A stretch of 34,412 nucleotides of DNA from an uncultured Bacilli bacterium. Lineage in GTDB: Bacteria > Bacillota_I > Bacilli_A > RF39 > UBA660. The stretch spans positions 1 to 34,412 of the forward strand of contig CANRPZ010000003.1 of the NCBI GenBank assembly GCA_947632625.1, read 5' to 3'. Below the pieces are notes generated by a model that saw only the letters and a list, made by a program, of their open reading frames with translations, ran no database searches and was not told the origin of the DNA. The translations under genes and the position numbers were made by a program. The first letter of the stretch is position 1, and each line of letters begins with the position of its first letter. Below, piece by piece: positions 6,938 to 11,592 of the stretch.

Positions 6938-6966
6938 TTGCAAAAGTAAAAAGAGTTTAGTATAAT
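6938..6966 (+). promoter_or_regulatory. Sigma-A-like promoter of the variable surface protein
   Basis: TTGCAA (6938-6943), 17-bp spacer, TATAAT (6961-6966). Confidence 0.7.
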
Positions 6967-6993
6967 TAAATTAACATAGGAGGAAAAAGAATT

Positions 6994-8803
6994 ATGAAGA
7001 AAAGAAATAGAATCCTCCCAACCGAAACTAGCTTCGGGGGGGGGGTTATTAGAAAGTAATAATAAACCAACGGAGCTACAAAGGTATAAGAAAAATACAA
7101 AGCAAAAGAAAATTTTAATTGGAGCAATAGTATTATTTATATTAATCATTGGCGGTATAAAACTATATCGCACTTTTGCATTGTATAAAGAAGAAAAATC
7201 CTTTAATGTATTAAAAGGAATAGTACCGGATTTTGTCGGAGGAGATGTAATACTCGCATTCACTGTAAATAATAAGGAAACAAATCACTTATCTTTCCCA
7301 AATAAAGGAGAAGGATATAAAGTAGATAAAGTAACTTGTGAGAATGATGTAAAAGCAGATTGGAATAACAATTCTTGGAGTCTAGAAATAAAGGATAGTA
7401 ACAAACAAAGAAAAATAAAATGTACAATTAATTTTAATAAGTATCAAGAAAGTATATTAAATGAAGCAGACCCAGTATTAAAAGAAGGATTAGTAGCAGT
7501 AAAAGTTGATAAAGATACAGGTGCAGTAACCAAAGCAGATACAACAAAACAATGGTATAGCTATGAGAATCAAGAATGGGCAAATGCGGTAATACTAACA
7601 AATGGTAAAACAGCAGATAACTACCAAGATAATGACCCGATACCAGAGGCAGATATCGAAAGTTATTTTGTATGGATACCAAAATATAAATATCAAATAT
7701 TCGATATGGGAAATTATACAACGAGAGAAGAAGATAGTAGTTATCAAGATAATGAACAAGCTATAGAAATAAAATTTGGCTTAACGAATACTATAGACGA
7801 TGAGGAAGAATGCATTGCTCCACCAAGTGGAGAGAATGGTACTTGTGCTGTAAATAAATGGATGACGCATCCAGCGTTTACTGCTTTTGATACAAACGGA
7901 ATCTGGGTTGGAAAGTTTAAGACAGGATACAAAGGAGCAAATAGTAAAACCGAAGCTGAACAAGATGGAGATGCATCTAAAATCATCATAAAACCAAATG
8001 AATATAGTTGGAGAGGTATAACTATAGGAATAATGTATCAAAATAGTTTAAATTATAATAAAGATTTAAATAGTCATATGTTAAAAAATACCGAATGGGG
8101 AGCAGTAGCTTATTTAGCCAACTCTATTTATGGACGATGTGACAAAAATACAAAGGAGTGTAGTGAAATACATGTCAATAATAATTCTGATTTTTTAACA
8201 GGTTATGCCGCAAAGCACAAATTTACAATAGGTTTTACTAGTACAAATGAGTCTTGTACAGAGCACTCTGATGCTTGTAATGAATATGGAGGATCAAGCA
8301 AAGGGCAAGACGGAACTTATAACTATCAATATTTTAGTCCAAAAAGTGTTAAGGCAAGTACCACAAATAATTACACTGGTATTTATGATATGAGTGGAGG
8401 TTCATGGGAATACGTAATGGGTGTGATGGTGGATGCAAATGATAATCCAATATATTTAAATAGTGAGTTAAGTGCAGATGATTTAAAAGACGAGAGATAT
8501 TATGATGACTATAAAAATGGTGTCGAATTCCAATATACAAGTCGAATATTAGGAGATGCAACAGGAGAGATGGGACCATTTATTCAAGAACAATATACGG
8601 GAACAACAACTACTGCAGTAGAACAAACTAGAACAATTAGTGGATGGTATCATGATGAAGGTTGGTTTGTCTTGACTGGCAGTCCTTGGTTCCTGCGTGG
8701 TGGCGTTTACGATCACGGGTTTGAGGGCGGTGTTTTCACTTTCGTTCGCGGCGCAGGTGAGGCGTACGCGTACCGTGCTTTTCGCCTTGCTCTTGCCTTT
8801 TAG
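6994..8803 (+). CDS. Membrane-anchored variable surface protein with FGE-sulfatase/C-type-lectin-like C-terminus; out of frame at a G10 tract in this assembly (phase-OFF state or frameshifted)
   Basis: ATG 6994 with RBS ATAGGAGG reads MKKRNRILPTETSFGGGVIRK and stops at 7057. Removing one G joins it to LLESNNKPTELQRYKKNTKQKKILIGAIVLFILIIGGIKLYRTFALYKEEKSFNVLKG... (TM helix), continuous to TAG 8801-8803. The body has no ATG/GTG/TTG upstream of TTG 7181. Confidence 0.8.
7036..7045 (+). repeat. Poly-G tract (G10), candidate phase-variation tract
   Basis: Ten consecutive G, the only such G run seen in the window, inside the 5' coding region of the surface protein. Confidence 0.85.
8661..8803 (+). 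other. Candidate DGR variable repeat (VR) at the 3' end of the surface-protein gene
   Basis: 80/143 G+C and only 12 A versus about 51 T, against an AT-rich, A-rich coding strand elsewhere. Encodes GWFVLTGSPWFLRGGVYDHGFEGGVFTFVRGAGEAYAYRAFRLALAF, with many codons ending in C/T. Confidence 0.65.
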
Positions 8804-9941: not shown

Positions 9942-9961
9942 TCTGATTTTTATCAGGCTAT
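9938..9961. terminator. Bidirectional terminator between convergent genes
   Basis: ATAGTCTGAT/ATCAGGCTAT stem (one G.T pair) with A run on the left; TTTT loop. Confidence 0.6.
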
Positions 9962-11503
9962 TAATTTGGCATGTACAACTAATCTTTCCGTATAATTTGT
10001 ACAAGTTGATAATGTTAAGATTTTATCCCCAGGTTTTACCTCAATATTAAAATCTTCTATGCTTCTTTCTTTAATTAAACTTACAAAATCATTAAAATCT
10101 TCATCAGTTTCAAAATAATTTTGTAGATAATCGGTAGTTTTGGGAACTTTATAAATAGAAAAAATCTGATACTTATGACTTTCGTAAATTGTGTCAAAGG
10201 TAATAATTAAATTTTCTGTATTGCTATACCAACTTTTCTTAAGAGCATTCGATAATGTTCCGAACATAACACTACTATAGTACATAGTATGACCAAATAT
10301 TATTGTATTATCATCCATTTCATAATCATTATTTCGATAATCCATAAAAATCCAACCGTTTTTATCCTCTTCATTATAAAGATTATGTTTTAAATAATAC
10401 TCATTATCTTTGGCTTGGACAACAGGATAGTCAATATTTGTGTCGTTTACTTTAAGCCATCCCACTACATCTGGATTTATAGATAAAATAGATGCAATAT
10501 AATTATTTTTAATTTCTCGTTGGGGATCAATTTCGTCTATTAAAGCAGGTGGCGTTTGATTATCTCGAATCGTTTCCCGAATATTTTCTTGAATTTCATT
10601 AACCTCTTGTAGTGATTTATAATTTGTAATAACAATATATAAAATAATTCCGGAAACGAGTATGACTAAAATTGAACCAATAATTTTTAATGTATTCATC
10701 ATGATTTGAATGAAAAGATTATTATTTAAGTATTCTTTGGAATAGACTAGTTCAATTTTGATTTTATTTTTGCGAATTTTTTTATTTAATTTTTTTAAAT
10801 ATTCAATCGATTTACTATCTTTAATATTAGAATAGATTAAGATTTTAATATTGCGCAAGCGATTATCACATAAAATTTCTAGAATAGTTTCTAAATCTTG
10901 TTTGTTATAAACATCCAAATGAATTGTTTTTAAATATTTGTTAATATTACAAAAAGCTAAAAAGTCATCTTTGTCATCTTCATCTAATAAAGTATCAATA
11001 TGAACATTCATTTTATAAAATATTTTAGAATAACTTGTTAAATTATTGCTTTGCATAAAATGACTAAGGTAAAATAGCTCGGTTCTCGATTCAGAATGAA
11101 TGCCCTTTTTATCTAACATTTCAATCATATAGGATGGAATATGTTCGGCTTCTATGTAGTTAATATTTTTATTTTCTAGAATTTTTTCATATAACTCATA
11201 GGATAGGGGAGCATTTTCTCTTATACATACCGCTGTAATATAAGGATTTTTTCTTAATAAATCTAATATGAAGATTGCAAGTTCATTATTTTCAAATGTA
11301 ACTCGATACACTTTTTTTTCTTGGCATATTTCATTAATAAATAAAGAAACTAGCTTTTCATTATCTAATATATAGTTTGGCGTAAAAATAAGTTCACTAT
11401 CATTAATTATATTAGTGTTTGATAAATTTGGTTTAACCGAAGGGGCATTTTTATATGCAAAAATAAGGGAATCATTGTAAATACTAATTTGAATTTTTTG
11501 CAT
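9953..11503 (-). CDS. Class B-like sortase with about 265-aa N-terminal cytosolic domain before the TM helix
   Basis: C-terminal domain IDYPVVQAKDNEYYLKHNLYNEEDKNGWIFMDYRNN...IIFGHTMYYSSVMFGTL...LTLSTCTNYTERLVVHAKL (His, TLSTC Cys, Arg). TM helix IIGSILVILVSGIILYIVI. Start set at ATG 11503 (RBS AAAGGTGGTG). Confidence 0.88.
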   Translation of the reverse strand: MQKIQISIYNDSLIFAYKNAPSVKPNLSNTNIINDSELIFTPNYILDNEKLVSLFINEICQEKKVYRVTFENNELAIFILDLLRKNPYITAVCIRENAPLSYELYEKILENKNINYIEAEHIPSYMIEMLDKKGIHSESRTELFYLSHFMQSNNLTSYSKIFYKMNVHIDTLLDEDDKDDFLAFCNINKYLKTIHLDVYNKQDLETILEILCDNRLRNIKILIYSNIKDSKSIEYLKKLNKKIRKNKIKIELVYSKEYLNNNLFIQIMMNTLKIIGSILVILVSGIILYIVITNYKSLQEVNEIQENIRETIRDNQTPPALIDEIDPQREIKNNYIASILSINPDVVGWLKVNDTNIDYPVVQAKDNEYYLKHNLYNEEDKNGWIFMDYRNNDYEMDDNTIIFGHTMYYSSVMFGTLSNALKKSWYSNTENLIITFDTIYESHKYQIFSIYKVPKTTDYLQNYFETDEDFNDFVSLIKERSIEDFNIEVKPGDKILTLSTCTNYTERLVVHAKLIA

Positions 11504-11592
11504 AAGTTCACCACCTTTTTTTACTCTTATGATACTATAATAACACAAATTTACACTTTTTTATAAAAAAATGTAGCATTTAGGTATTTTTA

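Follow-up and report, generated by a model that had tools for sequence, protein, structure and literature searches.

A candidate poly-G switch and a diversity-generating retroelement meet on a family of predicted surface proteins in an uncultured Bacilli genus

The 34,412-nucleotide stretch of DNA analysed here (the window) is contig C3 of the genome of an uncultured Bacilli bacterium (G000; 1,042,319 bases in 91 contigs, 92% complete). It carries a gene for what is in all likelihood a surface protein, one of a family of about 26 with a membrane anchor and a lectin-like domain at the C terminus, that is switched by a poly-G tract and diversified by a diversity-generating retroelement (DGR). 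The tract, a run of ten Gs near the start of the gene, is very probably a reversible on/off switch that would operate through poly-G slippage. A broader reading, in which a hairpin-bearing poly-G leader switches dozens of lectin-like proteins, a single DGR hypermutates their tips, and the hairpin at the tract is a dedicated tuner of slippage or of leader translation, has in our judgment about an even chance of being right. The features of the gene and of the DGR cassette are:

6938-6966, plus strand: sigma-70-type promoter, TTGCAA-N17-TATAAT (direct sequence reading)
6978-6983, plus strand: Shine-Dalgarno sequence AGGAGG (direct sequence reading)
6994-7059, plus strand: leader open reading frame, MKKRNRILPTETSFGGGVIRK and stop, the putative OFF allele, in which G10 leaves the body out of frame (translation; core found 20 times in the genome)
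7014-7045, plus strand: conserved predicted hairpin CCTCCC-AA-CCGAA-ACTAGC-TTCGG..GGGGGG with the G-tract as its 3′ arm (folding, z -3.4)
7036-7045, plus strand: G10 tract, candidate slippage site of a translational ON/OFF switch (sister tracts of 9, 10 and 11; 8-11 in the genus)
7046-8803, plus strand: surface-protein body, 585 codons 3′ of the tract, stop codon at 8801-8803 (about 26 genome copies)
7112-7159, plus strand: membrane-anchor segment ILIGAIVLFILIIGGI (translation)
7181-8661, plus strand: ectodomain, its C-terminal part with a predicted C-type-lectin / DGR variable-protein fold (AlphaFold2 model and PDB structure matches)
8662-8796, plus strand: DGR variable region (VR), compared with the TR on C25 (L059:616-750)
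L059:616-750, on C25: TR, near a DGR-type reverse transcriptase (RT)
L059:1116-1481: stand-alone MutS domain I protein between TR and Avd, a known MSL accessory type
L059:1819-2853: DGR RT with an IGN.TSQ motif

The G10 tract is the only G-run of seven or more bases in the window (34 kb, 28.5% GC), for which a first-order Markov estimate predicts 0.003 runs of at least ten, and a whole-genome search returned 22 separate runs of at least nine; the preliminary description had called the run striking in such AT-rich DNA, and these counts agree that it is not a product of chance. Direct reading of the sequence confirmed the tract, the ATG at 6994, the ribosome-binding site and the promoter exactly where that description had placed them, and translation confirmed that the ATG frame ends at the stop codon at 7057-7059, that nine Gs instead of ten give a 602-aa frame with a membrane anchor, and that this frame lacks ATG, GTG and TTG until TTG 7181. 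The stretch up to that codon offers only ATA, ATT and ATC, and upstream the frame is closed by a TGA that overlaps ATG 6994. An alternative start 3′ of the tract was rejected, since the first ATG, GTG or TTG, at 7181, lies beyond the membrane segment. With the tract in frame, the hydrophobic ILIGAIVLFILIIGGI follows shortly past the leader, and the KKNTKQKK that precedes it would suggest a type II topology. The tract is coding, begins at codon 15 near the 5′ end and has a repeat unit that is not a multiple of three; one length opens a long frame and the others truncate it, as expected of a translational-type SSR, a G9 copy (L017) reads through, and lengths vary from 8 to 11 among paralogues and species. 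A sortase-domain gene (window 9953-11548, minus strand) lies one gene from the tract-bearing gene, and no LPxTG-type link between it and the surface protein was seen.

Most G9 tracts in the source genome sit in one leader, ATGAAGAAAAGAAATAGAATCCTCCCAACCGAAACTAGCTTC followed by Gs, the core of which is present in 20 copies, 15 of them identical over 26 bases; the reversed pattern was found 0 times. As many leader contigs break off close to the tract, only 12 of the 20 tract lengths are complete: three are G9, the in-frame length, eight are G10 and one is G11. The DNA upstream of the sister leaders is otherwise different, yet keeps a TTGNAA/TATAAT-like promoter and an AGGAGG. The surface-protein body occurs in about 26 copies, most of them 50-81% identical, whose frames often stay open for 500-700 codons, and because many contigs start or stop at these genes, the window copy appears to be the only one seen here that is unbroken from leader to 3′ end. 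Other G-runs were recorded in promoter-like spacers and coding regions. A G10 spacer (TTGACA..G10..TATAAT; L009 5480-5489, minus strand) lies upstream of a secreted repeat protein gene, and a G11 spacer (TTGACT..G11..TATACT; L012 329-339, plus strand) upstream of a three-gene operon. At L015 4960-4970 and 6475-6485 (minus strand), G11 splits each of two near-identical tandem polytopic membrane protein genes into 88 + 391 codons, a pair that looks phase-variable with both copies OFF. A G9 at about the tenth codon of a predicted membrane protein gene (acyltransferase-like, by eye; L012 13490-13498, plus strand) is likely a coding switch.

The nearest named relatives are MAGs labelled uncultured Bacilli or Tenericutes, several of which have rabbit ('Lapin') or chicken isolate names. 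G9 words are present in 22 of 22 genomes of the genus (G000-G021), whereas most other families of the class have none or only a few. The leader motif, CTCCCAAC..G8+T, was found in 14 genus genomes (13 besides G000), in diverged versions and in up to 47 copies each, and in none of the others among the 60 genomes searched. All 40 complete loci that were retrieved and have 150 or more open codons beyond the tract are OFF (35 with G10, four with G8 and one with G11), and they are so through frame alone, with bodies open across 300-680 codons; in a larger motif list, G9 forms a minority of about 6 of 26 in G004, 4 of 47 in G017 and 2 of 20 in G015. A comparison of tract length and frame across related MAGs, which the preliminary description had proposed as a check, thus gave lengths of 8-11 with nine in frame, and the recurrence of the leader within the genome, in several tract lengths, and of the tract in 14 species strongly supports its reading of the tract as a site of poly-G phase variation.

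In other species, tract-free homologues have an ordinary ATG (M-K-L-E-K/R-F/Y...) just ahead of the same membrane segment. The preliminary description had held that homologues with no homopolymer and a fixed, intact frame would speak against a switch, and some homologues are of this kind, but they start elsewhere, directly before the anchor, and this different start codon indicates a switch that was gained later rather than the absence of one. Elsewhere the ATG is kept and G10 lies between TTGACA or TTGACT and TATAAT (e.g. L125, L126, L168 and L185), and in one relative (Lapin-018 bin51) a third placement has G8-G9 inside the open reading frame (L128 5970-5978, L132 5972-5979, L133 2315-2323). 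The promoter placement resembles that of the Neisseria porA type, in which poly-G occupies the promoter spacer between the -35 and -10 elements; the likeness is confined to these relatives of the window gene and does not extend to the window copy. Most simply, leader and tract would have been added upstream and the old start codon lost, whereupon expression would have come to depend on the tract, and the promoter placement would have arisen as a second one. That one family has come by tracts repeatedly, and in different positions, is hard to explain except by selection for switching. A 48-G run in another genome of the genus (G018 C10:10508-10555) is less likely to be a natural tract than an artefact of sequencing.

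At the other end of the gene, the VR stands just ahead of the stop codon, at the C-terminal end of the protein. Compared with the TR, it is changed at 20 of 31 template adenines and at 2 of 104 other bases (Fisher p 4e-14). The only RT found in the genome is on C25, where the order is VR - TR - MutS domain I protein - Avd - RT and where Avd was recognised by the NCBIfam model NF033474 (87.4 bits, cut-off 80) and bAvd (83.1, cut-off 40). Five other VRs, on C25, C59, C10, C76 and C24, have an equally strong adenine bias; remoter family members carry many non-adenine changes as well, probably because they were targeted in the past or are served by a different template. The same DGR cassette, including the MutS domain I protein (L290 7046-7405), recurs in the sister genome G010, where a target gene with a G10 leader lies immediately upstream of it and all 11 VR changes (11 of 11) fall on adenines. 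The DGR is not present in every member of the genus, as a matching RT was not found in G001, G004, G007, G015 or G017 despite their many G-leaders, and in G005 stop codons and a shift of frame break up the RT (C91:555-1575, L295), so that the DGR seems to be decaying in that species. The existence of leader-rich genomes without an RT indicates that the switch is independent of the DGR and that the two are separable layers. Searches of Pfam and NCBIfam assigned no domain to the surface protein and a profile search with it found no sequence relatives in the PDB. The PDB structures that best matched its AlphaFold2 model (pTM 0.85) were TaqVP (E 3.8e-6) and, after it, Mtd and formylglycine-generating enzyme. 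TM-scores were modest, at 0.27-0.41.

The tract is also part of a predicted RNA structure, in which the six final Gs pair with CCUCCC and enclose, in the window copy, an inner CCGAA/UUCGG stem. With G10, 61 of 61 distinct leader cores are predicted to fold alike, with a mean folding energy of -18.7 kcal/mol compared to -13.4 (sd 0.27) when the interior was shuffled and -16.8 (sd 0.24) when arms were swapped between leaders, and the inner stems vary on both sides (CCGAA/TTCGG, CCATTG/CAATGG, CCAGA/TCTGG). When the arm-swap test was run on 31 arm classes, 12 of 5000 shuffles reached the observed value, a weaker but positive result that gives moderate support; these tests treat leaders as independent, uncorrected for relatedness. 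A leucine codon in the leader, CTC, accounts for 0.6% of leucine codons in the window genes, which points to constraint at the nucleotide level. The Shine-Dalgarno sequence GGAGGA is complementary to the leader's TCCTCC at 7013-7018, and because the CCTCC arm complements the Shine-Dalgarno, the hairpin could possibly act as an RNA switch; it could also affect slippage. A crude literature search found no published report of a hairpin at a phase-variable repeat. The preliminary description was incomplete, as it had missed the multigene family, the 3′ variable region and the hairpin that contains the tract.

As a working model, the duplicated leader cassette would consist of a ribosome-binding site, an ATG, 14 codons that include one hairpin arm, and Gn, and the gain or loss of a single G would switch expression. 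Where n is divisible by three (nine, among observed lengths), the leader would be in frame with anchor and ectodomain and the protein would be made; where n is 8, 10 or 11, translation would stop early, so the window copy would be OFF in the assembled population. The DGR, encoded once elsewhere as TR, MutS-like protein, Avd and RT, would rewrite adenine-templated positions in the 3′ VRs of the window gene and at least five sisters. Labour would thus be divided, with switching picking which copies are displayed and the DGR altering what the displayed tips bind. Within-clone slipped-strand mispairing, surface display and ligand binding are parts of this model that we infer from the sequence comparisons.

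The most serious rival to this model is that G10 is itself the working state, a recoding signal at which RNA polymerase slippage or ribosomal +1 frameshifting, aided by the hairpin, would yield a low and constant amount of full protein from every copy. The dominance of G10 among complete loci (35 of 40), the conservation of a hairpin that contains the tract and the nucleotide-level constraint, down to the rare leucine codon, would all fit such a signal. However, lengths of 8, 9 and 11 also occur, nine being directly in frame, other species carry G10 in a promoter spacer, where recoding has no meaning, and tract-free homologues have ordinary starts, and we therefore consider recoding improbable. 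The G10 excess bears on the switch as well, and counts against it. Tracts of 9 or 11 are far rarer, and a neutral random walk in length would not obviously yield such a skew; the excess could reflect an equilibrium length, selection that keeps the number of expressed copies low, or leaky recoding at G10. The genome also encodes a full MutS, at C9. This counts against the switch reading, since MutS usually restrains slippage, although poly-G phase variation is known both from species that have MutS and from species that lack it. Given that full MutS, the idea that lost mismatch repair makes the tract unstable is unsupported.

A sequencing or assembly error, the main alternative in the preliminary description, would mean that the tract is not truly G10 and that the gene is in fact intact. 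Homopolymers are error-prone, the consensus comes from a metagenome and many leader contigs stop at or near the tract, but an indel of this kind cannot account for a leader and tract that are repeated and conserved across the genus: the tract is kept in 14 species from different assembly projects, its complementary arm is conserved, it has several lengths with G10 dominant, and it is also found within long contigs. We give this explanation very little weight, and a single-base error at the window locus alone, which is possible, would leave the system-level conclusion untouched. Equally slight is the chance that the leaders serve as conserved sites of recombination, with pseudogene-like donors making up most copies, gene conversion creating the variation and the G-run incidental. 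The near-identity of leaders (15 of 20) next to bodies only 50-81% alike, and the majority of OFF copies, are what such a silent archive would predict; the bodies, however, are open for hundreds of codons and almost free of other lesions, VR changes are confined to adenines, each copy retains its promoter and ribosome-binding site, and the design persists where the leaders of different species have diverged. Gene conversion may act in addition to the proposed switch.

Poly-G phase variation and multi-target DGRs are each established. SSR phase variation has been described with both translational and promoter placements, and Campylobacter poly-G tracts, most of which are 9G (52%) or 10G (30%), resemble those described here in being coding tracts of about 8-11 at dozens of loci, surface genes among them, in an AT-rich genome (PMC6321876). 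Several things set the present system apart from Campylobacter: a single protein family is served by one duplicated leader cassette, a conserved hairpin has the tract as one of its arms, 10 is the most frequent length, the host belongs to a gut Bacilli lineage, and a DGR also targets these genes. The DGR resembles that of the Treponema denticola TvpA family, as portrayed in part of PMC4891356, in having one TR and RT, remote targets (up to seven in T. denticola), surface proteins of C-type-lectin fold and an Avd-type cassette, whereas the targets here are membrane-anchored and not lipoproteins, and begin with a poly-G switch; that part of the source describes no phase switch on the T. denticola targets. 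MutS-like proteins (MSL, PF01624) are known DGR accessories (PMC10053308), and the stand-alone MutS domain I protein in the TR-Avd interval belongs to this known cassette type, with nothing notable that differs. The vlhA genes of Mycoplasma likewise form a surface-protein family with many members, each under the control of a repeat's length, in a genome that is small and AT-rich, but the repeats there are GAA units upstream of the promoter, and here a G-run lies in the coding sequence or, in sister species, in the promoter spacer (PMC6258824). A literature search, with most subscription journals beyond its reach, found no report of poly-G tracts or phase variation combined with a DGR on one gene family.

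If the proposed model is true, an uncultured genus of gut Bacilli with genomes of about 1 Mb devotes a noticeable share of them to stochastic ON/OFF display and targeted hypermutation. This would account for the way the contigs of these MAGs break off at the genes in question, and would lead one to expect annotation pipelines to shorten or overlook them. It would also offer a naturally replicated set of hundreds of loci in more than 12 species, in which to ask why the tracts sit at 10, what role a hairpin has at a slippery tract, and how DGR targets are expressed.
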